Positions 18,245 through 59,895 of a DNA stretch of 64,000 nt are shown here, in pieces. Position 1 is the first letter of the stretch. The number at the start of each line of letters is the position of its first letter. This DNA is from Siphonodentalium dalli. Its lineage: Eukaryota > Mollusca > Scaphopoda > Gadilida > Siphonodentaliidae. The position numbers and the translations under genes were made by a program. Under the pieces are notes generated by a model. The model did not search any database, had not been told where the DNA came from, and was given only the letters and a program-made list of their open reading frames with translations. The DNA lies in NCBI GenBank assembly GCA_032622095.1, contig CP136064.1:260131863-260195862 (forward strand). The letters are read 5' to 3'.

Positions 18245-18822
18245 TCTCATATATATTGTGAAGACCTCTGTTTGTCTGTCTGTCTGTCTGTATGTCTGTA
18301 TGTCTGTCTGTATGTCATTTATACAAATCTACGATTCTCGACCGATCGGGACGAAACTTGGTACGTGTGTGTAGTTTGACCAGGCGGTGGACGTTGTCGT
18401 ATTGGCGAGTCCGTGCGACGCCCGCTTCGCGCATGCGCAGACGAGATCTCGGAAACGGGTGGAGCTATCGACTTGAAATTTGGTATGTGAATGTATCTTG
18501 CCCCGGATACGAATTTTATCGGGTCGCCGAGCCCATGCGACGCCAGCTTCGCGCATGCGCAGACGAGATATCGGAAACGGGTGGAGCTATCGACTTGAAA
18601 TTTGGTATGTGAATGTATCTTGCCCCGGATACGAATTTTATCGGGTCGCCGAGCCCGTGCGACGCCAGCTTCGCGCATGCGCAGACGAGATCTCGGAAAC
18701 GGGTGGAGCTATCGACTTGAAATTTGGTTTTTGAATAGCCCGGACAACGTCGGGCTGGGCAGAGCTATCGACTTGAAATTTGGTTTTTGAATAGCCCGGA
18801 CAACGTCGGGCTCATCGGATAG
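18245..18822 (+). mobile_element. Helitron array unit 1 (family A)
   Basis: Starts TCTCATATATATTGTG. It contains a TCTG microsatellite and the conserved leader CTACGATTCTCGACCGATCG. The 3' hairpin segment AGCCCGGACAACGTCGGGCT occurs twice near the end. The terminal tetranucleotide is ATAG instead of CTAG. Confidence 0.8.
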
Positions 18823-19620
18823 TCTCATATATATTTTGAAGATCTCTGTCTGTTTGTCTGTTAGTCTGTCTGTCATTTATACAAATCTACGATTCTCGAC
18901 CGATCGGGACGAAACTTGGTACGTGTGTGTAGTTTGACCAGGCGGTCGACGTTGTCGTATTGGCGAGCCCGTGCGGTGCCCGATTCGCGCATGCGCAGAC
19001 CAGATCTCGGAAACGGGTGGAGCTATCGACTTGAAATTTGGTACGTGTGTGTAGTTTGACCAGGCGGTCGTCGTTGTCGTATTGGCGAGCCCGTGCTACG
19101 CCCGTGCAGCGCATGCGCAGACGAGATCTCGGAAACGGGTGGAGCTATCGACTTGAAATTTGGTGTGTGAATGTATCTTGCCCCGGATACAAAATTTATC
19201 GGGTCGCCGAGCCCGTGCGGTGCAAGCTTCGCGCATGCGCAGACCAGATCTCGGAAACGGGTGGAGCTATCGACTTGAAATTTGCTATGTGAATGTATCT
19301 TGCCCCGGATACGAATTTTATCGGGTCGCCGAGCCCGTGCGACGCCAGCTTCGCGCATGCACAGACGAGATCTCGGAAACGGGTGGAGCTATCGACTTGA
19401 AATTTGCTATGTGAATGTATCTTGCCCCGGATACGAATTTTATCGGGTCGCCGAGCCCATGCGACGCCAGCTTCGCGCATGCGCAGACCATGTCTCGGAA
19501 ACGGGTGCGGCTACCGGGTACCATTTTTTCTTATTGAAACGCGTGGAGCTAAACATTTAAAAAATATATTTAAAAATGTCATGTTTCGGACAAGCCGCCG
19601 GTGGCGGGCTAACCTGCTAG
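18823..19620 (+). mobile_element. Helitron array unit 2 (chimera of family A 5' end and family B 3' end)
   Basis: Starts as family A (TCTCATATATATTTTG, leader and 122-bp repeats). From about 19500 it switches to sequence shared with the end of unit 3, including AAAAATGTCATGTTTC and the family-B hairpin, and ends AACCTGCTAG. One unit thus has the head of one family and the tail of another. Confidence 0.8.
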
Positions 19621-20739
19621 TCTATACTATATATTTTGAGACTTCGTATATATGTATGTATGTACTTCATAGAATCCAAAACGCGTGTACAGATTGAGCT
19701 CAAACTTCCTATGTAAGTGTCAAATCCCACCGACACGACCGTGGTCGCAGTTTAGAGAAGCTCAGAGCACCCGTTCTCCAATCTCAAATCACCGCAAAGG
19801 CACGGCGTGGGTTAATCAAGTGATTATTTAATGAGCGTTTGTTTTTGACGCATCTCTATAAAGAGCGTCTGTTTGCCATTCAACGTTATTTGCATCTGCA
19901 GTGAGATATACGGAACATACATTAAATTTAAAAAACATTTGTTTCTGACCAACCCTGCGAGCACGGATGGCGCGCTTTGTTTTTACAGTATATAGTTATA
20001 TACCGAAATCATCCCAGATAATCACGAATATAGCATCAGATTTCTCCCCAGATATACCGTTATAAAGCTACTGGAATCTGCCAATCTACGGGAAATTCCG
20101 TGGGAATGCCGATTGAGCTCAAACTTGCTACCCACGGGAAGTGTCATATATATGAGTGTGTCTTTTATAGACTCGAACCGATTGAGCTCAAACTTGCTAA
20201 ATAAGAAAATAGCCCCCAAGCCGTAAATATCAACAACAACGATATTACTAAATACACGTTTTTGGCAATGTGAGAGTTTTCGGGGAGCCGTGATGCCAAC
20301 AACAACGACCCGAAGCCCTGAATGCCAACAACAGATTCAATGCAGTGTTATCTATTATGCAGAGAGATTTCACGACATTACGACGGGTACGGCAGACTCA
20401 AAATATTATGCAGACAGATTTCCCGACGGGAAGCGTTTGTTTTAAATTCAATGCAATGTTATCGTAGAGAGATTTCACGAAACAAAGAATGCGTTGTCTG
20501 TCGTTCCTAGGAAGGGGGGATTTCTACGGGTAAATTTTTCCGCCAGAAACCAAAAAATTAATTAAAACAATTTACAATTTAATTAAAACAATTTAAAATT
20601 AAAAAAAATTAACAATACAAAAACAATTCAGAAACAAAATATATTAAATTTTAAAAACATTAAATTCATATTCAAAAATGTCATGTTTCTGAAACAAAGC
20701 CATGGGACGAATGCCGCCAGTGGCCGGCTAACCTGCTAG
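19621..20739 (+). mobile_element. Helitron array unit 3 (family B)
   Basis: Starts TCTATACTATATATTTTGAG and ends with hairpin GCCGCCAGTGGCCGGC plus TAACCTGCTAG. The interior differs from family A: it carries repeated GATTGAGCTCAAACTT motifs and A/T-rich DNA rather than the 122-bp repeat. Confidence 0.78.
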
Positions 20740-21119
20740 TCTCATATATATTTTGAAGACCTCTGTCTGTATGTTTGTTTGTCTGTCTGTCATTAATACA
20801 AATCTACGATTCTCGACCGATCGGGACGAAACTTGGTACGTGTGTGTAGTTTGACCAGGCGGTCGTCGTTGTCGTATTGGCGAGCCCGGGCGACGCCCGT
20901 GCAGCGCATGCGCAGACGAGATCTCGGAAACGGGTGGAGCTATCGACTTGAAATTTTCTATGTGAATGTATCTTGCCCCGGACACGAATTTTATCGGGTC
21001 GCCGAGCCCGTGCGATGCAAGCTTCGCGCATGCGCAGACCAGATCTCGGAAACGGGTGGAGCTATCGACTTGAAATTTGGTTTTTGAATAGCCCGGACAA
21101 CGTCGGGCTCATCGGCTAG
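20740..21119 (+). mobile_element. Helitron array unit 4 (family A)
   Basis: 380 bp, TC to CTAG, with little more than one full 122-bp repeat between the leader and the 3' hairpin. Confidence 0.8.
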
Positions 21120-21843
21120 TCTCATATATTTTGAAGACCTCTGTCTGTTTGTCTGTCTGTCTGTCCTTAATACAAATCTACGATTCTCGACCGATCGGGA
21201 CGAAACTTGGTACGTGTGTGTAGTTTGACCAGGCGTGGGCGTTGTCGTATTGGCGAGCCCGTGCGACGCCCGTGCAGCGCATGCGCAGACGAGATCTCGG
21301 AAACGGGTGGAACTATCGACTTGAAATTTGGTATGTGAATGTATCTTGCCCCGAGTACGAATTTTATCGGGTAGCCGAGCCCGTGCGACGCCAGCTTCGC
21401 GCATGCGCAGACGAGATCTCGTAAACGGGTGGAGCTATCGAGTTGAAATTTGCTATGTGAATGTATCTTGCCCCGGATACGAATTTTATCGGGTCGCCGA
21501 GCCCGTGCGATGCCAGCTTCGCGCATGCGCAGACGAGATCTCGGAAACGGGTGGAGCTATCGACTTCTCGGAAACGGGTGGAGCTATCGACTCGAAATTT
21601 GGTATGTGAATGTATCTTGCCCCGAGTACGAATTTTATCGGGTCGCCGAGCCCGTGCGACGCCAACTTCGCGCATGCGCAGACGAGATCTCGATCTTGCC
21701 CCGGATACGAATTTTATCTGGTCGCCGAGCCCGTGCGACGCCAGCTTCGCGCATGCGCAGACCAGATATCGGAAACGGGTGGAATTATCGACTTGGAAAT
21801 TTGTTTTTTTAATAGCCCGGACAACGTCGGGCTCATCGGCTAG
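21120..21843 (+). mobile_element. Helitron array unit 5 (family A)
   Basis: 724 bp with several internal 122-bp repeats. It includes a small internal duplication around CTCGGAAACGGGTGGAGC (near 21540-21590) and one shortened repeat at about 21688, which unit 7 shares. Confidence 0.8.
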
Positions 21844-22361
21844 TCTCATATATATTTTGAAGACCTCTGTCTGTATGTATGTTTGTTTGTTTGTTTGTCT
21901 GTCTGTCTGTCATTTATACAAATCTACGATTCTCGACCGATCGGGACGAAACTTGGTACGTGTGTGTAGTTTGACCAGGCGGTGAACGTTGTCGTATTGG
22001 CGAGCCCGTGCGGCGCCCGCTTCGCGCATGCGCAGACGAGATCTAGGAAACGGGTGGAGCTATCGACTTGAAATTTGCTATGTGAATGTATCTTGCCCCG
22101 GATACGAATTTTATTGGGTCGCCGAGCCCGTGCGATACCAGCTTCGCGCATGCGCAGACGAGATCTCGGAAACGGGTGGAGCTATCGACTTGAAATTTGC
22201 TATGTGAATGTATCTTGCCCCGGATACGAATTTTATCGGGTCGCCGAGCCCGTGCGACGCCAGCTTCGCGCATGCGCAGACCAGATCTCGGACACGGGTA
22301 GAGCTATCGACTTGAAATTTTGTTTTTGAATAGCCCGGACAACGTCGGGCTCATCGGCTAG
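21844..22361 (+). mobile_element. Helitron array unit 6 (family A)
   Basis: 518 bp, TC to CTAG, standard leader, tandem 122-bp repeats and 3' hairpin. Its 5' region has an expanded TTTG/TCTG microsatellite. Confidence 0.8.
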
Positions 22362-22700
22362 TCTCATATATATTTTGAAGACCTCTGTCTGTATGTATGT
22401 ATGTCTGTATGTCATTGATACAAATCTACGATTCTCGACCGATCGGGACGAAACTTGGTACGTGTCTGTAGTTTGACCAGGCGGTGGACGTTGTCGTATT
22501 GGCGAGCCCGTGCGACGCCAGCTTCGCGCATGCGCAGACGAGATCTCGATCTTGCCCCGGATACGAATTTTATCTGGTCGCCGAGCCCGTGCGACGCCAG
22601 CTTCGCGCATGCGCAGACCAGATATCGGAAACGGGTGGAATTATCGACTTGGAAATTTGTTTTTTTTAATAGCCCGGACAACGTCGGGCTCATCGGCTAG
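22362..22700 (+). mobile_element. Helitron array unit 7 (family A, short)
   Basis: 339 bp. It carries the same shortened repeat junction (CTCGATCTTGCCCCGG) and the same TATCTGGTCGCC variant as the end of unit 5. This suggests that 5 and 7 share recent ancestry although unit 6 lies between them. Confidence 0.8.
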
Positions 22701-23201
22701 TCTCATATATATTTTGAAGACCTCTGTCTGTATGTATGTATGTCTGTATGTCATTGATACAAATCTACGATTCTCGACCGATCGGGACGAAACTTGGTAC
22801 GTGTCTGTAGTTTGACCAGGCGGTGGACGTTGTCGTATTGGCGAGCCCGTGCGGCGCCCCCTTCGCGCATGCGCAGACGAGATCTCGGAAACGGGTGGAG
22901 CTATCGACTTGAAATTTGGTATGTGAATGTATCTTGCCCCGGATACGAATTTTATCGGGTCGCCGAGCACGTGCGACGCCAGCTTCGCGCATGCGCAGAC
23001 GAGATCTCGGAAACGGGTGGAGCTATCGACTTGAAATTTGGTATGTGAATGTATCTTGCCCCGAATATGAATTTTATCGGGTCGCCGAGCCCGTGCGACG
23101 ACAGCTTCGCGCATGCGCAGACCAGATCTCGGAAACGGGTAGAGCTATCGACTTGAAATTTGGATTTGAATAGCCCGGACAACGTCGGCCTCATCGGCTA
23201 G
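22701..23201 (+). mobile_element. Helitron array unit 8 (family A)
   Basis: 501 bp, TC to CTAG. Its leader is nearly identical to unit 7 (TCATTGATACAAATC variant). The 3' hairpin carries one change (GTCGGCC). Confidence 0.8.
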
Positions 23202-23829
23202 TCTCATATATATTTTGAAGACCTCTGTTTGTCTGTATGTTTGTCTGTATGTCTGTGTCATTTATACAAACTACGATTCTCGACCGATCGGGACGAAACT
23301 TGGTACGTGTGTGTAGTTTGACCAGTCGGTCGTCGTCGTCGTATTGGCGAGCAAGTGCGGCGCCCACTTCGCGCATGCGCAGACGAGATCTCGGAAACGG
23401 GTGGAGCTATCGACTTGAAATTTGCTATGTGAATGTATCTTGCCCCGTTACGAATTTTATCGGGTCGCCGAGCCCGTGCGACGCCAGCTTCGCACATGCG
23501 CAGACGAGATCTCGGAAACGATTGGAGCTATCGACTTGAAATTTGGTATGTGAATGTATCTTGCCCCGGATATGAATTTTATCGGGTCACCGAGCCCGTG
23601 CGACGCCAGCTTCGCGCATGCGCAGACGAGATATCGGAAACGGGTGGAGCTATCGACTTGAAATTTGCTATGTGAATGTATCTTGCCCCGGATACGATTT
23701 TTATCGGGTCGCCGAGCCCGTGCGACGCAAGCTTCGCACATGCGCAGACCAGATCTCGGAAACGGGTGGAGCTATCGACTTGAAATTTGGTTTTTGAATA
23801 GCCCGGACAACGTCGGGCTCATCGGCTGG
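23202..23829 (+). mobile_element. Helitron array unit 9 (family A, last)
   Basis: 628 bp. It ends CTGG, still a legal CTRR, followed by T and then family X DNA. It closes the array. Confidence 0.8.
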
Positions 23830-24363
23830 TATATATATGTATATATTACAGTAACTGAAACAGGGCCTTTATTCAGCGACGGAATGGCTCCTCTGTGCGC
23901 GAATAGAAAGCGCACATGCATTATGATCTTGAACAGGCTCCTTTCGGGAGCTTTTATTCAGCAGCGTGTATATAGGACCACAGGCCCCTGCACTGCGGCC
24001 CATTTGCGCACTTCGCGCCCATTTTCATATTGTATAAACATTATTTTATACATATCAATTTGCCGTCTTCCGTATATATATATGTACTCCTTCGATTCCA
24101 CACTCAATGCACTTTCATAACAGACACAATCTATTACTTATATTCACTGTTCAAAGTGGAATATTAAAAGACCATTTAACATCCATTTCCAACGATGGTA
24201 TAGCACGTTCGAGTTTCGACTCTACGCCCCATGCATGCACTTCCACGACAAAAGCAACATGCTTTACTTATATTCACACTCAACCTGATCTGACAAATTA
24301 ATTCATAGCGCCCATTTTCAACAACGTTTTGGTAGAGCGCATGGAAATTTCGCCAATACTATA

Positions 24364-24688
24364 GCTGAAGGGGTCACTCTCACCAAAAAAAGTGTTGAAG
24401 GGTACACAGTGTTTGAAAATGTGCTGAAGGGTACATGGGGTTTGTGATCGGCACGAACACCATTACTTAAATTGTGTTTATGAAAGTCTGGCGCCCATTA
24501 GTAGTTTGTTTTCAGTACATTTTGATATTCATTGAAACGTAATCAATTATTCTCTAACAGAAATCATGGCAGATACGAAGACTGAATGTCCTTTAGAATG
24601 ACATTTCAAACCCTGTGTACCCTTCAGCACATTTTGAAAATCCTGTGTACCCTTCAGCACTTTTTTTGGTGAGAGTGACCCCTTCAGC
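24364..24688. mobile_element. MITE with long TIRs and 9-bp TSD (Mutator-like)
   Basis: AATACTATA at 24355-24363 is repeated at 24689-24697. The ends are inverted: left GCTGAAGGGGTCACTCTCAC, right its complement, with about 75-bp arms that contain two further GCTGAAGGGTACA motifs each. The 325-bp element sits inside family X copy 2. A related uninterrupted site in copy 3 (GCAATAGCAACGCAAG near 26221) shows the pre-insertion state. A 9-bp TSD suggests Mutator, but no transposase is present. Confidence 0.78.
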
Positions 24689-25031
24689 AATACTATAGCA
24701 ACGCAAGTGTGGGTTTGTGTACGACGCTTCGACAACCGTCATAGGAAATAGTGTCTACTTGAGTGCAAACACGTGGCGTTTGGGGACCATGCTCGATCTC
24801 ATGTTCTCTCTGACCAATCGGCGTGAAAGATGGTGAGTCATCTTCTACGACACAATATTGCCCGTGTTCCAAATTTGGGCTATACATTGGACGCATGGTT
24901 GAAAAGTTATAAACGCGCCAAAAGCGTGACCCAGTTATACACACACAGATACACACACACACACTCACCCTCACGGGATCACACAGATACACACACACAG
25001 ACGACGGGTTATATATATATATATATATAGA

Positions 25032-26503
25032 CCAGGGGATTGCCCGTCAAAATGACGGGTATATAAATGTTCTTCGTTACATTCTAGTATCCGCGGTCAT
25101 GGGCACATTGTCATTGCTATATCAGCAATGGGTTGGTCAGGCTTCTCTTTCACCGGAGGCGCGTGGGAACAACACTTTTTTGAACTAAAACTGTATTCTG
25201 TACCCCCATCTACCCCACATATATATGCATGAACATTTGGAATGCAACACAATCAACATATATTACTTTATTACTGTATTTTCTATCTGAAACAGACTCC
25301 ATTTGGGAGCGTTTATTCAGCGGGGGGGGGGGGGTCTGCGACCCCTTTACAGTAAGCTATGAGCCTAGTTCGGGAGCACTGAAAAACTGTATTTTCTACC
25401 ACCATCCACATATATGCATGCACATATGGAATGCAACATAATCAACTTATATTATACTAGCCGATGAGCCCGACGTTGTCCGGGCTATTCAAAAACCAAA
25501 TTTCAAGTCGATAGCTCCACCCGTTTCCGAGATCTGGTCTGCGCATGCGCGAAGCTGGCGTCGCACGGACTCTGCGACCCGATAAAATTCGTATCCGGGG
25601 CAAGATACAATCACATACCAAATTTCAAGTCGATAGCTCCACCCGTTTCCGAGATCTCGTCTACGTATGCGCGAAGCTGGCGTCGCACGGGCTAGGCGAC
25701 CCGATAAAATTCGTATCCGGGGCAAGATACATTCACATACCAAATTTCAAGTCGATAGCTCCACCCGTTTCCGAGATCTCGTCTGCGCATGCGCTGCACG
25801 GGCGTCGCACGGGCTCGCCAATACGACATCGACGACCGCCTGGTCAAACTACACACACGTACCAAGTTTCGTCCCGATCGGTCGAGAATCGTAGATTTGT
25901 ATTAATGACAGACAGACAAACAGACAGACAGACAGAGGTCTTCAAAATATATATGAGATTACTTTATTACTATGATATATAACTGAAACAGAGCCTTTAT
26001 TCAGCGACGGAGTGGCTTGCAGCCCCCATGTGCGCTTCGCGCATATTACAGTTTATATTCACACGGAAGTGGCACATTAAAAGACCATTTAGCACCCATT
26101 TCCAACGATGGTATAGAACGTTCGAGTCTCGACCCTTCACACTCAACCTGATCTGACAATTAATTTATAGCGCCCATTTTCAACAACGCTTTTGGTAGAG
26201 CACATGGAAATTTCGTCAATGCAATAGCAACGCAAGTGTGGGTTTGTGTACGACGTCACAATCATGACGTCATTTCGACAAACGTCATAGGAAATAGTGT
26301 CTACTTGAGTGCAAATGTGGCGTTTGGGGACCATGCTCGATCTCATGTTCTCTGACCAATCGGCATGAAAGTTCGTGAGTCATCTTCTACGGCAGAATAT
26401 TGGCCTTGTTCGAAATTTGGGCTCCATTGGACACATGGTTGAAAAGTTATAAACGCGCCAAAAGCGTGACCGAGTTATACACACAGAGACACACACACGT
26501 TGA
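25032..26503 (-). mobile_element. Helitron-like family X, copy 3 (5'-truncated)
   Basis: Minus-strand 3' end: hairpin CCCGTCATTTTGACGGG, CAATCCC, CTGG, joined to the TC of copy 2. Its own pieces are 25032-25456 and 25959 to about 26503. It contains two internal copies of a ~190-bp segment. The expected 5' end (ACCCGTCGTC plus AT repeats and TC) is missing near 26503, so the copy is truncated there. Confidence 0.7.
25457..25958 (-). mobile_element. Solo family-A Helitron, minus strand
   Basis: 502 bp, the reverse complement of the array units: TC start at 25958, leader, 122-bp repeats, hairpin AGCCCGGACAACGTCGGGCT and CTAG at 25460-25457. It lies between A and T. The uninterrupted sister segment in the same element (about 25255-25275, CATATATTACTTTATTAC) shows the empty site, so this copy demonstrates the A|T target rule directly. 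Confidence 0.88.
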
Positions 26504-26759
26504 TCACTCACCCTGCTTTTCGCAAATGTACCCTCTCGGCCTAGAACAGTTCTCCATTGCCCAGTTGCCTTAAATATATTGCACCACACAATCGAATCCC
26601 TCCTGCAGGGTTGGTTCAGCGACATCCCAGAAACTTGTATGTGCAGCTTGGCCGTTGACCCAATTGAAACCAATAGCTCCTTTCATCAATGATATCCAAA
26701 CATTCTTTTGACCTGTCTCGCTTATTAAGTGGAAAGAAACTTGTTGTTATATAAAATAT

Positions 26760-27218
26760 GTGACCCGCCATATCAAATCCAGTTGTAAGTCGGGATTTGT
26801 TTTACCCTGTGCAAATGCATTCTCTTGTATATGCGAGTCGACCATAGGTCGCCTCGCATATATAAGATAATGCATTGGCCTAACAATTTTTTATCATGTT
26901 TTTTAAATAAATGTTTCTTACAATTTTTAGGACATAAAATAAACAAACATCCATTACCCTGCAGGGAGCTCCACGCATATACGGAAGCACATAGAAGAGT
27001 GTCGTCTGCTCATGTTTGTCTGGGGCTCTGTATGGGTGAAATTATAGAATTGTTAAAGAATACAAGAACAAATTATTAAAATTGTAAAAAATTGTTAGGC
27101 CAATGCATTCTCTTATATATGCGAGGCGACCTATGGTCGACTCGCATATATAAGAGAATGCATTGGCACAGGGTAAAAAAAATCCCGACTTCAGACTGGA
27201 TTTGATATGGCGGGTCAC
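26760..27218. mobile_element. Foldback MITE P1, copy 1
   Basis: 459 bp with ends GTGACCCGCCATATCAAATC in inverted orientation and ATAT on both sides (possible 4-bp TSD). Each arm includes a 69-bp palindromic module (26811-26879 and 27099-27167). The interior is shared with 46167-46621 and 57765-58012. No coding capacity; the superfamily cannot be named from a 4-bp AT-rich duplication. Confidence 0.8.
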
Positions 27219-27237
27219 ATATGCAGATGTACAAGCT

Positions 27238-27707: not shown

Positions 27708-29030
27708 TTAAAATTTTGGTTTCTCGTTGTTGAATTTAAAATAGAATTTGTTGGCTCTTCCTCTCCAGGTGTCGTTTAGTATAGATTTAAAAGCATTCAC
27801 ATCTTCTGCTCCGATGCATAATTCTGTCAGGTTGTTCCAGTTGTTTGTACTGCGTGGAATGAAGCTATTTGCTGTGCTATTGTTTTTATGAATTTCTTTC
27901 TAATTTTTTTCTTTATGACCTCTTGTTCTGTTTGAGAGTGATTTCTTTAATGACCGGAGAACTGCTTTGTCCTTCTGGTTGATGATCTTGTACATTTGGA
28001 TCATATAACACCTCTCTCGTCGGTAGTACAGTGTTGGTAAGCCGAGCATTTTATTTCTTTCTTCATTGTCCAAATTTCTTAGCTTATTTGTTGTTGATAA
28101 TTTAGTTGCTCTTCTTTGGACATTTTCGATGGCAATCTGATGTTTTCTTAGGTGTGGGTTCCAAACGGACGACGCATATTCTACGATTGGTCTGATGAGC
28201 GATTTGAATAGGATTTTCAGCATTTCCTCGTCTATATGGTTAAAAGTTCTCCGAATCATTCCAATTCTCTGGTTTGCTTTGTTGACTGAAGATGATATAT
28301 GTTGACCCTTTACCCAACAGAAGGGCCCTGTGCCAATGCATTCTCTTATATATGCGAGTCGACCATAGGTCGCCTCGCATATATAAGAGAATGCATTGGC
28401 TTAACACATTAAAAATTATAAAATTGTTAAAGAATGTAAGAAAAAATGGTATAAAAGTGTTTTAAAAATATTTTTTTAGGCCAATGCATTCTCTTATATA
28501 TGCGAGGCGACCTATGGTCGACTCGCATATATAAGAGAATGCATTGGCACAGGGCATAACTGTAACCATCACAATGTGGTCAATGAACCGGTTCCAATGA
28601 TATCCATATATGTATGGTTTTATTGAGATAGACCGAAGATATTTTAGGCTGTTGAAGCTTTATTTGGGCGTTTTTGGCCGGTTTGTTGGGTAAAGGGTTA
28701 ATCATAGGTTAGCCCTGTGTCAAAGACAACCCCAATGTCTTTCTCAGTATCTGTGGATTGAATTTCTATATTGTTGTTGGAGTCACTGATTGAGTATGCA
28801 AACTTTGGGTTGTCTTTGCCGATGTGTAAGACCTTGCATTTAGCTGCATTGAATCTCAGTAGCCATCTTTCTGACCAGTCGAATAGTTTGTTTAGATCTG
28901 GTTGGAGTTGCAAATGGTCTTGCTCGTCCGTTATTTCTGTATAGATTTTTGTATCATCTGCGAACAGTTTGCAGCGAGAAGTTATTTCAGTTGTGATATT
29001 ATTTATGTATACAAGTGTAACAATTATACC
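27708..29030 (-). pseudogene. LINE ORF2 C-terminal part, broken by a TTAA MITE
   Basis: Minus strand: YINNITTEITSRCKLFADDTKIY near 28980 contains the RT catalytic FADD box. It is followed by WSERWLLRFNAAKCKVLHIG, then MITE P2 copy 1 (28302-28701), then MIRRTFNHIDEEMLKILFKS and IVEYASSVWNPH. After a frameshift near 27900 it continues IPRSTNNWNNL to a stop at 27708-27710. The order matches thumb and C-terminal regions of a jockey/CR1-clade RT of a different lineage from the intact LINE. The N-terminal RT half lies at 33077-33662. Confidence 0.8.
28302..28701. mobile_element. piggyBac-like MITE P2, copy 1
   Basis: Ends CCCTTTACCCAACA in inverted orientation, flanked by TTGA (mutated TTAA) and TTAA. 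Contains two copies of the 68-bp palindromic module (28333-28400, 28480-28548) in inverted orientation. It interrupts the LINE pseudogene between its RT and thumb regions, so it is younger than that LINE. Confidence 0.82.
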
Positions 29031-35378: not shown

Positions 35379-35840
35379 TTAACCCTTTACCCAACAAAGC
35401 GGCCAAAAACGCCCAAATAAAGCTTCAACAGCCTAAAATATCTTCGGTATGTCTCAATAACACCATACAAATATGGATATCATTGGAACCGGTTCATTGA
35501 CAACATTGTGATGGTTACGGTTATGCCCTGTGCCAATGCATTCTCTTATATATGCGAGTCGACCATAGGTCGCCTCGCATATATAAGAGAATGCATTGGC
35601 CTAAATAAATTCTTTTTTAACACTTTTTACCATTTTTCTTACATTCTTTAACAATTTTATAATTTTTTTTTACATTTTTTAACATTTTTATAATATTTTT
35701 CTACATTCTTTGACAATTTTATCATTTTTAATATGTGTTAAGCCAATGCATTATCTTATATATGCGAGGCGACCTATGGTCGACTCGCATATATAAGAGA
35801 ATGCATTGGCACAGGTCCGTTCTGTTGGGTAAAGGGTTAA
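35379..35840. mobile_element. piggyBac-like MITE P2, copy 2
   Basis: 462 bp with exact TTAA on both sides (35379-35382, 35837-35840) and inverted ends CCCTTTACCCAACA. Two palindromic modules lie near 35530-35600 and 35741-35810. The left arm keeps a ~140-bp subterminal region that copies 1 and 3 keep on their right arm, so it lies in opposite orientation to them. Confidence 0.85.
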
Positions 35841-37010: not shown

Positions 37011-37306
37011 TCTGATCAGTTATGCCACTATGGCTATGGCTAGCAAGATAGATAGTTAATCCCTTGGTCAGTATTAACACTGTGTCTGAGTAATTTCCCT
37101 CTGGGAATTTAACTACAGACTTTGAGTTCATTGTAGAGCTCAGGTCTTCTGGGGGCACCATCATAGCCATGTCTTGGACGCAGCAACTTGTCTAATTAAA
37201 ATCACATTCATCATACCAATCAAAGGATTAAATTTGAGTGTCTTCAATAAAAGTGCAAACCTGGGGCTTGGCATATGTACAATTTCATGCCAAGGTGGTC
37301 AAACTC

Positions 37307-37512
37307 TAGTCCAAGTCTTCTCGTACTAAAATCAGCTAAGATATTGGTATGGCGAGATGCTGGATTTTAAAATCCAGCATCTCGCCATACCAATATCTTA
37401 GCTGGTTTTAGTACGACATCTCGCCATACCAATATCTTAGCTGGTTTTAGTACGACATCTCGCCATACCAATATCTTTTATAGCTGGTTTTAGTACGAGA
37501 AGACTTGGACTA
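37307..37512. mobile_element. Foldback element with 9-bp TSD (Mutator-like)
   Basis: GTCAAACTC at 37298-37306 recurs at 37513-37521. The 206-bp insert begins TAGTCCAAGTCTTCTCGTAC and ends with its complement. The left arm runs to a centre at ~37366. The right arm contains three tandem ~39-bp copies (CATCTCGCCATACCAATATC...) where the left arm has one. A 9-bp duplication points to Mutator-type integration. Confidence 0.82.
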
Positions 37513-37521
37513 GTCAAACTC

Positions 37522-39150
37522 CTGATATGATATCATACTATATCAGTTGATGCTGAGTATTCATTGGAATAACTTGACTATGATTTTTTATCAACTCAGC
37601 TAATTCGTTATTACCGATAAATAAGAAGAGTTAGAATAATTATTTTCTACACGAAGTTTACTGTGTACATGCAAGTGTCTGTGTACATATATATTATAGT
37701 GTTATTTAATATTCAAAGTTACTTGTGATTATTGTTTCTTCGATATCAACGGTTGTCGTATGTGGAGTGAATTGGATTATACAGTATAGTTTATACTAAT
37801 TTCATCATAACATTTATGACAAAGGATGCAGGTTTTAGAAGATGTATCAACGTCATATGTCATCTTTCACAAATTGGCTGCAAAAATAAGTGAGTAGCAG
37901 ATCGAGTAGCATCATTTAAACTCTTTCTTATTTTCTACCTCCATAATGGTAGCCACGAATAACATCATACTAAACAATCTTTGCGCTGGCGCACGTTGGA
38001 ACAGTTTTCAATTCATACATGTAGTATATATTTTTTTAATGGTGCCCCCTCCCCACTTTTTTGTAGCTTCTGCCGCCCCTGCTGTCTGACGTAAACAAAC
38101 TACAGAAACACTTACCGATATTCATATGCAGGAGAAGCGAATTGGAAATAGTAAAATAATTAAAATATCTTGGGGTGTATTTTCTTTTATAATCGGGGGG
38201 GGGGGGGGGGGGGTCGTAACAAAATTTGGAGACAGAGGGTTGAAAAAAATAATGTCCGCTACCCGACCACCCACCCCACCGTCTGTGCATTTTTTTTTAA
38301 TTTCCAGGGCAACTTTTTGGGGAATAAAGCCACCCCCCCCCCCCCCCAATTAGTAAATAAAGCAGAATAATATGAAGAAATTTTTTTTATCAACCTGGTT
38401 TTTTCTAGCAATTACTATTACGTATATTAATACAACCCATAACAGTGGAATAGTAGTACTATGATCGGAAGCAAAATCATAAAAAAAAACAGTTCCCATA
38501 GTTATCTGCTTCCAATCTTTTTGCCAACATTTAAATACTTCAGAGTGTATTTAAATATATGCATATGGATTTCATCTTAGGCCTGTAACATTCACCTCAA
38601 TTCAAATGGTGCATGTGCACATAGTGTTCAAGTTTGTTGGCAAATGCACTCCATGTGGCATCCTAATGGACTGAGCAGTATGTCAGTGATTATTTGATTG
38701 TTATATTAATATATTGTATCTCACGTGACTTTGTTATTGAAATCAAGCTTTCCGATTGGTTGGCTACTCGACTCTATTAGTCGTAGTTGTATACTACGCC
38801 TTCAAGTCTCTCCCATCGTGCACTATGCATATGTAGTTTTGACTACTAAAAATAGTAACGAACACTACATCAAACTTTGTTCTGAAACTACTTGTTATTT
38901 CGCCGCTGATCCAAATTAAAGCTTCAGTAAGGCGAACATCAATTGTCTGAACTTAGTAAAAGTTGAAAATAGTAGTTTCCTACTGCTAATTAATTAAAAA
39001 CAAACAAACAAACAAACCTGAACAAAGATGAATTTAAAAATGTTTTTTTTTTTTTTTTTACATTATTTATTTTTATTTTTTTTTTAAATGGTGTTTGCCC
39101 CTTTGGTTTGCCTTTAATTTCTGCATTTGTTCGATACAATATAATAATTA
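37522..39150. other. No recognised gene; homopolymer G/C tracts
   Basis: Contains a ~19-bp G-run at ~38196-38213, a ~16-bp C-run at ~38332-38347, a CAAA microsatellite near 39000 and T-rich tracts near 39040-39085. A stretch at 38705-38780 (TATCTCACGTGACTTTG) is related to DNA just right of the hairpin at 39151-39279, so a larger unit may be repeated here. Confidence 0.45.
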
Positions 39151-39279
39151 GAGCATGACTTGTCGTGAAATACGCCGATATAGTGCATAGTGCGGTTGTG
39201 TAGTTCACTCCGCTTCGCGTCGTGAACTACACAACCTCACTATGCACTATATCGGCGTATTTCACTCCAAGCCATGCTC
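39151..39279. repeat. TC-framed hairpin H1
   Basis: A long hairpin in a fixed frame: GAGCATG-a-CTTG, TC (39163-39164), 44-nt arm, TC (39209-39210), 9-nt core CGCTTCGCG, TC (39220-39221), 44-nt arm, TC (39266-39267), CAAG-c-CATGCTC. The two 44-nt arms are reverse complements with one mismatch. The outer and core segments also pair. Only the four TC dinucleotides fail to pair, because all four lie in the same strand orientation. Confidence 0.88.
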
Positions 39280-39930
39280 TATTTATTAAATATTATATCT
39301 CGCGTGACTTTCTCGCATTCTGATTGGCTGCACACTGCTATACTATTTTACGATAGTACCCCAGTAGGATTCCTACAAGCCTACTATTCTTTTCTATTTA
39401 TAGAAACAAACTCATTTCACGAAATCGGTTTGCCACCTGAAGCTACGGCCAATCTTAAACTAAGATACCGTGTACGATAGTTGTTGCAATAGGATTAGAT
39501 TTATTGGTGAATTGTAATGATCTTACAAATATCCGATCATGGATAGCCAATGTATTTGATAGTTTGTCCGTTTGGTTGGCAAGCGGCCAGTCCTAATTTT
39601 GTAATGCATTGCAGCGGAAGAAATAACTTCCGCTCATTTCAGTTTTAATCGAAGTTAAGCCAGTTAACTTCTACAATTTCGCCAAAATATCTTTGCTAAT
39701 GACGTATTTATAGCAATAAATGCATGAACCATGAAGAGGTGTTGTTAGATGTAACTAATAACATAGCTATGCCCCCCCCCCCCCACCCTGCCATCGTCAA
39801 CAGAGATTGCCGTAAATTGTAAAATCTGAGACCGATTTCCAAAATTCACGGTAAATAAAAATGTGACAAAATCAGACACAGATATTGTGTGAGAATTGGC
39901 ACCAATGTTCGATAAAATATAATAAATAAT

Positions 39931-40055
39931 GAATGTCTTGTCGTTGACACTGCCAAAATAGTGGTCCTCGATGATGAATAGTCCACTCGCCTGCGGCTCG
40001 TGGACTATTCCTCCTCGAGGACCACTATTTTGTCATAGTCAACTCCAAGCCATTC
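39931..40055. repeat. TC-framed hairpin H2
   Basis: Same frame as H1 with identical spacing: CTTG, TC (39941-39942), 44, TC (39987-39988), 9-nt core GCCTGCGGC, TC (39998-39999), 44, TC (40044-40045), CAAG. Its arms pair at 40 of 44 positions. They match the H1 arms at only about 24 of 44 positions, so the arms have changed together. About 20 bp left of H1 and H2 are homologous (TTCGATAMAATATAATAA), showing common descent. Confidence 0.88.
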
Positions 40056-40803
40056 AGTATCTATATAATAATTTGCTACTGCTGACATGCGGATGTCACA
40101 TTGTGTTATTCAAAATGGGTTGTTTTATATATGGAGCCATGTATAGGACTACTGGTACATACCTAATGACTTTCAACAGGTCTAAACATAGTTATAAGTT
40201 CATCAACATAAGACAAAGACATGTGCGATATATTGAAAGTGTAATGCACTACCCGTACATATACATGTATGTGCATGGACTGTGACCACACACAAAAGTG
40301 CATGGTAATCGACATGGTGACGTGACATCTTCGAATGCGGGTTTTTGTACAGCGCATATAGGTCATGCTTGGGGCCCTGAGTCCTCCCTGAAAGATGTCA
40401 ACTATTGAAGGTAAAGTGAGAAACAAATGCTAATAATTACCCATGTTTGCATTAATAGCACCCATATAGCACGAATAAGCATCAAATATAGCCATTAGTG
40501 TGTAAAACAAGATGGCTGTCAATGTCACGTGACATCTGTGATGGCGGTATGCGTGGCTCTGAACTTGCGATGCCTTTGTCTAATCATATATGGAGTTCCA
40601 ACAAATTATTCCAAGCATACTTGAGATACAATATTCATACCGTATTTGGTCTACTTGGAATATATACGCCTGCCGTGCTGAGTGGCAGCGAAAGAGATAA
40701 AACAAAATAAGCCAACTCAATATAGTTACACTGACTGTGATTATGTGGCTAACATAATAGGGTGCATTATTTTGCTCTTGGTATTTCAGCTGATAGCCAT
40801 ACC
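40056..40803. other. No recognised gene
   Basis: No supported coding or RNA gene. The open frames at 39971-40285 and 40163-40426 have no domain features, and the first overlaps hairpin H2. Confidence 0.5.
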
Positions 40804-46019: not shown

Positions 46020-46166
46020 CGTGATTTCGCACATTGAAATCATTGTTATGTAAACTTTACTGTCACAGTGACAATGCCGATCAAAGTCCAATTAAAACAA
46101 TAAAATATCAAAGTTTAATAAAACCTTTATGGCAAACATTAGAAAATGTCAAAGAATTGAACAAAT

Positions 46167-46621
46167 GTGACCCGCCATATCAAATCCAGTCGGAAGTCGG
46201 GATGTTTTTACCCTGTGCCAATGCATTCTCTTATATATGCGAGTCGACCATAGGTCGCCTCGCATATATAAGAGAATGCATTGGCCTAACAATTTTTTAT
46301 CATTTTTTTAAAATAAATGTTTCTGACAATTTTTAGGACATAAAATAAAAAACATCCATTACCTGCAGGGAGCCCCACACATATATAGAAGCATATAGAA
46401 GAGTGTTGTCTGCTCATGTTTGTCTGGGGCTCTGTATGGGTGAAATTATAAAATTGTTAAAGAATACAAGAAAAAATTATTAAAATTGTAAAAAATTGTT
46501 AGGCCAATGCATTCTCTTATATATGCGAGGCGACCTATGGTCGACTCGCATATATAAGAGAATGCATTGGCACAGGGTAAAAAAATCCCGACTTCCGACT
46601 GGATTTGATATGGCGGGTCAC
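46167..46621. mobile_element. Foldback MITE P1, copy 2
   Basis: 455 bp, ends GTGACCCGCCATATCAAATC inverted, AAAT on both sides. Two palindromic modules near 46219-46287 and 46503-46571. The interior matches copy 1 closely, so both are recent. Confidence 0.85.
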
Positions 46622-46833
46622 AAATATTCTGAAAAATATATCTTTTTTACGACGCGATTAGGGCTGCTTGTTGACAAATCACTGTACTAGTTTGTTATGC
46701 GAAATTTTGTTATCATGGAGAGCTATCAATAATTGGTGATGTTTTTACAGAAGTATATAATTTTTTACACATTTACCCACTGCGAGTGCCTGTCACTTTT
46801 AACTTTTGATACAATCTGAGACAATTGGTATAT

Positions 46834-47501
46834 ATAGAGGATCTCACATGAGTTTCTATTTTATACGGAATTTATCAACCGAGTTCACTAAATTCGAGTT
46901 GAGCCGAGGTTTACCGAGGCTCAAATAGAATTTAGAGGACGAGGTTGATAAATTACGTATAAAATAGGACGAGTGTGAGATACCTTTTATCACATGATCA
47001 AATAAACCCGAAGCAACGCGAAATATTCATCGAAAACAACAATCATAAACTACAGCGATCGCAAGTTATTTGAAGAACGCCGTGACGTCATCGCACGCGC
47101 TGATATTAAACGTGTCTATTACCGATAATTTTGAAACTACTTTTATGGCCAAATTATGTGATAAATACTTTTATCACATAATTTGGCCATAAAAGCAGTT
47201 TCATAATTATCGGTAATAGACACGTTTAATATCAGCGCGTGCGATGACGTCACGGCGTTCTTCAAATAACTTGCGATCGCTGTAGTTTATGATTGTTGTT
47301 TTCGATGAATATTTCGCGTTGCTTCGGGTTTATTTGATCATGTGATAAAAGGTATCTCACACTCGTCCTATTTTATACGTAATTTATCAACCTCGTCCTC
47401 TACATTCTATTTGAGCCTCGGTAAACCTCGGCTCAAATCGAATTTAGTGAACTCGGTTGATAAATTCCGTATAAAATAGAAACTCATGTGAGATCCTCTA
47501 T
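46834..47501. repeat. 668-bp near-perfect palindrome
   Basis: Two 334-bp arms mirror each other around 47167 with very few differences. Each arm is one copy of the hairpin-bearing unit described for 47172-48177, the left one inverted. Each arm also contains its own ~130-bp hairpin with TC-opposed-TC interruptions, and a TGACGTCA palindrome in GATGACGTCACG. Confidence 0.9.
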
Positions 47502-48177
47502 TTATCACATGATTAGCACTATTTTCCGATGTAATATTCGAGCGTAATAGACACGTGTAATATCGTCGCGTGCAATGACGTCACGCTGCTCTTTGGGACA
47601 ATGATCGCTGGCTGCAGTTAATTGTTGTTTTCGATAATTTTTTTAGCGATTATATGATCATGTGATAAAAAGTATCTCAAACTCATTCTATTTTATACGT
47701 AATTTATCAACCTCGTCCACTAAATTCTATTTGAGCCTCGGTAAACCTCGGCTCAAATCGAATTTAGTGAACTTGGTTGATAAATTCCGTATAAAATATT
47801 AACTCGTTTGAGATCCTCTATTTATCACATATAATTTGCCCATAAAAGCAGTTTCATAATTATCGGTAAGACACACGTTTAATATCAGAGCGTGCGATGA
47901 CGTCACGCCGTTCTTTAAATGACTTGCGATCGCTGCAGTTTATAATCGTTGTTTTCGATGAAAACTTCGCTTTGCTTCGCGTTTATTTGATCTTGTCATA
48001 ACAGGTATCTCACATTCGTCCTATTTTATACGTAATTTATCAACCTCGTCCACTAAATTCTATTTGAGCCTCGGTAAACCTCGGCTCGATCCTCGGTAAA
48101 CCTCGGCTCAAATCGAATTTAGTGAACTCGGATGATAAATTCCGTATAAAATAGAAACTCATGTGAGATCCTCTATG
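47172..48177. repeat. Three direct copies of a hairpin-bearing unit
   Basis: Units are about 47172-47514, 47515-47829 and 47830-48177. Each has a leader containing TGACGTCA, then a hairpin that opens with ATCTCACAC-TC-GT and TATTTTATACG, passes ATCAACC-TC-GT and TTTGAGCC-TC-GGT, turns on AA, and returns the same way with TC at matching points. The leader is more diverged than the hairpin between units. Unit 3 has a 22-bp duplication of the hairpin tip. Confidence 0.85.
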
Positions 48178-57764: not shown

Positions 57765-58012
57765 CATACAGAGCCCCAGACAACCATGAGCAGACGACAC
57801 TCTTCTATATGCTTCTATATATGTGTGGGGCTCCCTGCAGGGTAATGGATGTTTTTTATTTTATGTCCTAAAAATTGTAAGAAACATTTATTTAAAATAA
57901 ATGATAAAAACTTGTTAGGCCAATGCATTCTCTTATATATGCGAGGCGACCTATGGTCGACTCGCATATATAAGAGAATGCATTGGCACAGGGTAAAAAA
58001 AAATCCCGACTT
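57765..58012. mobile_element. Foldback MITE P1, copy 3 (partial)
   Basis: Contains the P1 interior in reverse orientation (GAGCCCCAGACAACCATGAG, CCCTGCAGGGTAATGG) and one palindromic module near 57919-57987. It breaks off inside the right terminus after AATCCCGACTT. The left half is missing. Confidence 0.75.
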
Positions 58013-58839: not shown

Positions 58840-59140
58840 TTGATTGACTGATTGGGGTTTAATGTCGCTTTCAGCAACTAAGGCATATCACGACATTGCC
58901 AGTTTTAGCGTTGTAGGAAATCCGCACACTTACGGCTAATCTAACAGTGGTTCCAATGGCTGATAAACTCGTCGACCATGCTGTGCGGCAAACTACCGGC
59001 CATCGGGGAGTAACTGACAACTCCACCAGATAACGATTACGAGCTACAAAGTCCACGATGAAACATGTGGATTTGAACCCTTACCGACAGCGCTGAATGG
59101 CTTGGAGTTGTACCCCTAACCGATTGAGCCACCGATGTCC
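58840..59140 (-). mobile_element. tRNA-derived SINE
   Basis: On the minus strand the head resembles a tRNA: TGGCTCAATCGGTTAGGGG (box A, 59131-59113) and GGGTTCAAATCC (box B, 59080-59069), the RNA polymerase III promoter pair. The element continues about 220 bp to a tail ending TTAAACCCCAATCAGTCAAT (read on the minus strand). The tail motif TTGACTGATTGGGGTTTAAT resembles conserved 3' domains of metazoan SINEs, as I recall them. The poly(A) or simple-repeat tail is not obvious. Confidence 0.72.
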
Positions 59141-59494: not shown

Positions 59495-59895
59495 TTAACC
59501 CTTTACCCAACAGAACGGCCCTGTGCCAATGCATTCTCTTATATATGCGAGTCGACCATAGGTCGCCTCGCATATATAAGAGAATGCATTGGCTTAACAC
59601 ATTAAAAATTATAAAATTGTTAAAGAATGTAAGAAAAAATGGTAAAAAGTGTTAAAAAAAAGATTTTTTTTAGGCCAATGCATTCTCTTATATATGCGAG
59701 GCGACCTATGGTCGACTCGCATATATAAGAGAATGCATTGGCACAGGGCATAACTGTAACCATCACAATGCGGTCAATGAGCCGGTTCCAATGCTATCCA
59801 TATCCGTATGGTTTTATTGAGACAGACCCAAGATAATTTAGGCTGTTGCAGCTTTATTTGGCCGTTTTTGGCCGGTTTGTTGGGTAAAGGGTTAA
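59495..59895. mobile_element. piggyBac-like MITE P2, copy 3
   Basis: 401 bp with TTAA at 59495-59498 and 59892-59895 and inverted ends CCCTTTACCCAACA. Two palindromic modules near 59526-59593 and 59673-59741. The right boundary lies 1 bp before the start codon of the THAP gene. Confidence 0.87.

Follow-up and report, generated by a model that had tools for sequence, protein, structure and literature searches.

Palindromic MITEs and foldback elements of eukaryotes, like the palindromic repeats of giant viruses such as M1 and M2 of pithovirus, are short, non-coding and nearly fully palindromic, and occur in more than one copy amid transposon debris (PMC10664404, in the sections consulted). Bacterial REP sequences, which are 20-40 bp long, carry a GTAG or CGTC tag and belong to prokaryotes, combine a fixed 2x2 bubble with arms that vary in pairs, and are recognised as a single strand by RAYT; turning their AA/GC bubble into pairs abolishes RAYT cleavage, and in one REP family of Pseudomonas aeruginosa, GA residues are left unpaired at a set place in the stem (all from the excerpted text of PMC3733652).

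Copying between the arms of a hairpin offers a further point of comparison. The portions consulted of three studies describe the creation and maintenance of hairpins by template switching, with DNA-stable loops enriched at instantaneous compensatory changes (PMC8794818), the homogenisation of inverted-repeat arms (PMC8604942) and the concerted evolution of palindrome arms (PMC6649704). Co-varying palindrome arms, including those that arise by template switching, are already known. The terminal hairpins of parvoviruses are long palindromes as well, in which a conserved GA/GAA mismatch gives the two sides different roles (PMC1185569, in the excerpts consulted).

Here we describe a palindromic repeat of ~165 bp, H, present in two copies (H1 and H2) in a 64-kb window, by which we mean the whole stretch of Siphonodentalium dalli DNA that was analysed. 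H resembles the palindromic MITEs in all the respects listed above, but fixed tandem G·A bubbles and co-varying arms do not appear in the consulted sections of PMC10664404, and H is here without a demonstrated target-site duplication or related transposase. With REPs it shares a fixed mismatch bubble between drifting arms; unlike them, it is eukaryotic, has two bubbles, is several-fold longer and ends its framed part in a CTTG/CAAG foot, and no RAYT-like nuclease lies among the 7 ORFs scanned in the window. Its arms evolve together, as in hairpins maintained by template switching, whereas internal bubbles that resist homogenisation, as those of H would, are not described in the portions consulted of the three studies. 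The parvovirus hairpin, in contrast to H, is a viral replication origin and has one bubble with unequal sides, according to the excerpts of PMC1185569.

Results

Layout of the repeat

The hairpins H1 (39145-39285) and H2 (39923-40063) both follow exactly the layout CTTG-TC-N44-TC-N9-TC-N44-TC-CAAG, in agreement with an earlier sequence-only reading of this DNA, which had proposed a common TC-framed layout. The TC frames start at 39163, 39209, 39220 and 39266 in H1, and at 39941, 39987, 39998 and 40044 in H2. The parts of the two copies are as follows.

39128-39292, no strand assigned: H1, complete copy of the palindromic repeat (~165 bp), with gapless homology to H2; inverted repeat 39134-39296
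39159-39164, plus strand: H1 outer left CTTG and TC frame (GA on the minus strand)
39165-39208, plus strand: H1 left 44-nt arm, paired at 43/44 positions with 39222-39265
39209-39221, plus strand: H1 tip TC-CGCTTCGCG-TC; minus strand GA-CGC-GAA-GCG-GA, a GNA triloop
39222-39265, plus strand: H1 right 44-nt arm
39266-39271, plus strand: H1 outer right TC frame and CAAG
39906-40070, no strand assigned: H2, second copy of the repeat, by homology; inverted repeat 39922-40064
39937-39942, plus strand: H2 outer left CTTG and TC frame
39943-39986, plus strand: H2 left 44-nt arm, paired at 39/44 positions with 40000-40043
39987-39999, plus strand: H2 tip TC-GCCTGCGGC-TC; minus-strand tip GCC-GCA-GGC, a GNA triloop
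40000-40043, plus strand: H2 right 44-nt arm
40044-40049, plus strand: H2 outer right TC frame and CAAG

The earlier count of paired arm positions is correct for H1 and one too high for H2, where 40/44 had been given. The TC dinucleotides are also not the sole unpaired sites, as had been claimed: within its hairpin H1 has one further arm mismatch (C·T) and two in the flank (A·C and T·T), and H2 has four T·C or C·T and one A·A in the arms and three more in the flank.

Both copies are short non-coding units with terminal or full-length inverted repeats. The only ORFs of at least 80 aa that touch the region, of 104 and 87 aa, overlap H2 or lie beside it and are taken as chance. Neither copy has a clear target-site duplication; TC flanks GATA...TATC on both sides in H1, and this arrangement is absent in H2.

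The surrounding window is eukaryotic in character, with reverse transcriptases among its ORFs and many tandem and inverted repeats, and its retrotransposon and SINE-like debris fits an animal. A 29-nt stretch beside the right end of H1 (39284-39311) recurs 580 bp upstream at 38704-38732 with 90% identity, and may be what is left of a further copy. The right end of H2 (near 40040) shares an identical stretch of 18 nt, CAACTCCAAGCCATTCAG, with a tRNA-like SINE sequence at 59097-59114 (minus strand). A separate palindrome lies at 37306-37513, its right side holding a 39-nt unit in about three tandem repeats, and several arrays of a 122-bp GC-rich repeat occupy 18406-25817, one of them in the opposite orientation.

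Co-variation of the arms

An alignment of H1 (39128-39292) with H2 (39906-40070) runs over 165 nt without gaps and shows 66.7% identity (E 1.7e-7), which makes them two copies of a single repeat and not chance palindromes; the common ancestry proposed earlier from the left flanks thus extends over the whole unit. Their left arms are identical at 24/44 positions (2e-5 against shuffled arms), which matches the earlier estimate of about 24, and their right arms at 26/44. When the 44 arm pairs are compared between the copies, 22 are unchanged, 16 have changed on both sides and are still Watson-Crick pairs, and 6 have changed on one side, leaving a mismatch in H2 in five cases and in H1 in one. With flanks and tip included, both sides have changed in 20/61 pairs, where shuffles gave a mean of 10.0 and none of 500 reached the observed value, and sliding the partner by 1-3 columns as a control left 0-4 double changes.

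Wobble pairs are absent from all 88 arm pairs (44 per copy), so that 16/44 double changes stand beside no wobble intermediate, the pattern looked for in template switching. This fits copying at the level of DNA better than selection on RNA. Changes are not significantly clustered along the arm (runs test, p 0.15; scan, 0.22), and block-wise replacement of the arms, suggested by eye, was dropped on these values; from the H1/H2 pair alone, one event and several cannot be told apart with two sequences. None of the 8 frame bases differs between the copies, against 65% identity at the other 157 sites (0.032, assuming simple independence).

Frames and tips on the purine strand

A TC/TC bubble on the plus strand is, on the minus strand, GA facing GA, that is, a tandem G·A/A·G pair. 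When G-C pairs close them, tandem G·A pairs stack as ordinary base pairs do; in DNA such tandem pairs have an unusual stability, and so have C-GNA-G triloops. Each of the 8 listed frames has a closing G-C pair on either side, the window as a whole being 39% GC, and the tips of H1 (CGC-GAA-GCG) and H2 (GCC-GCA-GGC) are C-GNA-G triloops on the minus strand.

Folded as plus-strand DNA, H1 and H2 reach z-scores of -17.9 and -14.5. The purine strand is predicted to fold better than the other in all four hairpins folded as DNA, namely H1 (-68.2 vs -64.0 kcal/mol), H2 (-53.1 vs -45.8) and one hairpin each of two further families, P2 (-39.2 vs -33.7) and P3 (-37.8 vs -35.4), which are described below.

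The whole window was scanned for hairpins that combine a 2x2 bubble with a tip loop of 2-9, an inner stem of 3 or more and an outer stem of 6 or more. Six were found, five of them with TC/TC or GA/GA as the bubble, whereas 60 dinucleotide shuffles gave a mean of 1.8 such hairpins each and a single TC/TC or GA/GA bubble in total. Only two families contribute these five framed hairpins (two from H, three from P2), which therefore do not count as separate events; as independent evidence there are two cases, in each of which both frames point the same way. GA/GA bubbles are no general rule, since 93 kb of prokaryotic and phage DNA scanned as a control held nine such hairpins and no GA/GA. Applied to 50 kb of E. 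coli K-12, the same scan gave four hairpins at an outer stem of 6. Every one of them has the same AA/GC bubble, while their arms differ; we take these to be REPs by their GTAG foot and sequence, although the annotation does not label them so.

Further palindrome families

P2, in four copies between 46856 and 48154, repeats the architecture of H around a core of 8, with 23-nt arms (TC-23-TC-8-TC-23-TC), and has no similarity to the H region by blastn at E 0.01.

46856-46967, minus strand: P2 copy 1, inverted; GA/GA frames on the plus strand; no detected similarity to H
47368-47479, plus strand: P2 copy 2; TC(47393)-23-TC(47418)-8-TC(47428)-23-TC(47453)
47689-47798, plus strand: P2 copy 3; inner TC/TC frame intact, TT in place of TC at the right outer frame
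48021-48154, plus strand: P2 copy 4; tip duplicated internally

P2 belongs to a 320-bp tandem repeat. An inverted duplication of 336 nt, 99% complementary and with 4 nt between its arms, spans 46830-47505 and carries P2 hairpins in opposite orientation.

A third family, P3, consists of 69-nt palindromes; each of the 11 copies listed has a single T·C mismatch at a distance of five pairs from the tip loop. This T·C corresponds to a G·A near the tip, and the hairpin at 57919 (1/11) has no listed partner. P3 belongs to a MITE-like element family within 26811-59742 that has a 69-nt hairpin in each inverted end; examples are 46159-46629, 26756-27222, 28325-28555, 35527-35815 and 59518-59749.

Strand bias of single mismatches

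The frames mark out one strand without recourse to the remaining mismatches, which were entered by hand for the orientation test, with shared ones counted once. Before counting, loop bases and tandem frames were set aside, as were the outer flanks (in H2 the weakly paired positions 3-15, in H1 the part before 39145) and, in P2 copy 4, the duplicated tip. H and P2 together have 19 single mismatches: 10 G·A and 3 G·T on the strand whose frames read GA, one in the opposite orientation, and five A·A or T·T that cannot be oriented. On the frame-GA strand, then, 13/14 orientable mismatches read G·A or G·T (p = 0.0018), or 14/15 if the H1 outer flank, which holds one favourable C·A, is included. The bias is 8/9 in H (p 0.039) and 5/5 in P2 (p 0.063) taken singly. 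Adding P3 gives 15/18 (p = 0.0075) with the mismatch position common to two P3 copies counted once, and 16/19 with it counted twice.

As a class, G·A is not significantly enriched in H and P2 over the long-spaced inverted repeats of the window (11/19 vs 26/68, p 0.19), and the argument therefore rests on the direction of the bias and not on mismatch class. Some process thus appears to respond to one strand alone, in its folded form.

Searches for further copies, genes and RNAs

No third H copy was found in the window with nhmmer, the next match having an E of 0.86. The H frame pattern had no match in either a viral or a genome contig collection, and the P2 core, the P3 core, a further motif of this type and the reverse transcriptase of the window had none in the viral collection; a TC-frame motif matched in one of three other genomes. 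The H1 tip matched once in the viral contigs and four times in the genome contigs, and these five are taken as chance, none showing extended outward pairing. A Pfam scan of 7 ORFs from the window gave two matches, both reverse transcriptases, and among these ORFs there was no transposase, HUH/RAYT, other candidate nuclease or recombinase. The window contains no tRNA gene, and no Rfam 15 family matched it at the gathering score; weak matches (E up to 5), mostly to miRNA families, all fell below.

Discussion

Our best, still tentative, explanation is that H belongs to the foldback or MITE-like repeats, that copying within the hairpin keeps its arms matched, and that the folded purine strand tolerates the G·A frames. 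On this explanation, H1 and H2 are old, diverged copies of a palindromic non-coding repeat. During replication the purine strand would fold back on itself and a template switch would copy one arm from the other, rewriting mismatches and placing substitutions in both arms. A tandem G·A may neither hinder folding nor mark the site for correction, in which case the frames would persist, and single G·A and G·T mismatches would accumulate on the purine strand by the same tolerance; such repeats would require no host function. Template switching on one strand produces double changes without wobble intermediates and would also fit the strand bias, and the recurrence of the H architecture in P2, with another sequence and other arm lengths, counts for copying.

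Template switching alone leaves the survival of the frames unexplained. A copying tract running across a frame would be expected to remove it, but none of the 8 frame bases has been lost from either H copy, which leans towards selection; against copying stand also the lack of significant clustering of changes, which template switching would lead one to expect, the G·A class being not significantly commoner than in long-spaced inverted repeats, the lack of GA/GA bubbles in the prokaryotic and phage control DNA, and a comparison limited to two H copies. The sequence-only reading had gone further, arguing that templated repair must erase the TC mismatches. That argument assumes that all mismatches are equally visible and that tracts cross the frames, neither of which is established. 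In the part of the open-access literature covered by our search, nothing shows tandem G·A escaping hairpin-templated correction, nor did the same material contain persisting tandem G·A frames common to unrelated families.

A possible though less probable account is selection on a folded single DNA strand, in which a nuclease or transposase would recognise the purine-strand hairpin with its tandem G·A bubbles, as RAYT recognises REP, so that the arms drift while remaining paired and the bubbles stay fixed. Fixed bubbles with drifting arms are the REP pattern seen in our E. coli K-12 scan, and the conservation of 8/8 frame bases against 65% elsewhere, the closure of the frames by G-C pairs and the strand bias all accord with it. 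No candidate nuclease emerged from the 7 ORFs, however, whose only two Pfam matches are reverse transcriptases; neither collection scanned holds a copy from outside the window, the two H copies have no clear target-site duplication, and in one of the P2 copies a frame has become TT. More doubtful is an extension of this idea, that H and P2 belong to a eukaryotic group of mobile hairpins, a counterpart of REP, which would be moved or copied as a folded DNA strand and recognised by tandem G·A bubbles at set distances from the tip.

The layout could instead have originated by nested insertion, in which palindromic units inserted at a central TC and duplicated it each time, so that the frames would be 2-bp target-site duplications from one ancestor. 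Each layer does read as a palindrome centred on TC; in H and P2 alike, the layer just within the outer listed frame starts with GT and ends with AC, and H1 may have a further outer layer, TTC-GATA...TATC-TC. Both strands of the window were searched for an empty layer with five full-length forms and up to 2 mismatches, and none turned up, the bare 10-mer CTTGTCCAAG giving one-mismatch matches only; single T·C mismatches, strand bias and arm co-variation would also go unexplained. We regard this origin as unlikely.

The sequence-only reading had also suggested selection on a folded single strand or RNA with fixed loops. The folded strand gains from the tandem G·A reading, the strand lean and the P2 design, whereas the RNA half fares poorly. 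A functional hairpin RNA (hpRNA, miRNA-like or structural) transcribed from the minus strand, with its GA/GA internal loops under selection, would agree with the better folding of minus-strand RNA (-110.6 vs -100.4 and -85.6 vs -76.3 kcal/mol), but at an expected rate of 5% a count of 0/88 wobble pairs would arise by chance with probability 0.011, no Rfam match in the window rises to the gathering score, and the same design recurs in P2 as part of a 320-bp tandem repeat; we consider such an RNA improbable.

Finally, site-specific recombination sites with an asymmetric TC core and inverting segments between them, as first hypothesised from the short conserved borders CTTG-TC-GT and AC-TC, are very improbable, since directly oriented sites lead to excision and not inversion, the TCs within a copy all point the same way, inversion of one arm would break pairing and no inverted alternative is seen in two H and four P2 copies, and the 7 ORFs include no recombinase.

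Under the favoured explanation, copying within a hairpin whose purine strand tolerates tandem G·A, the mismatches that survive in arm-matched palindromes show which strand folded and which mispairs copying may overlook. If the tandem G·A rule holds genome-wide, palindromic repeats would be a natural record of hairpin formation and of the blind spots of correction; if the frames are selected instead, they would point to an enzyme acting on single-stranded DNA in animals.
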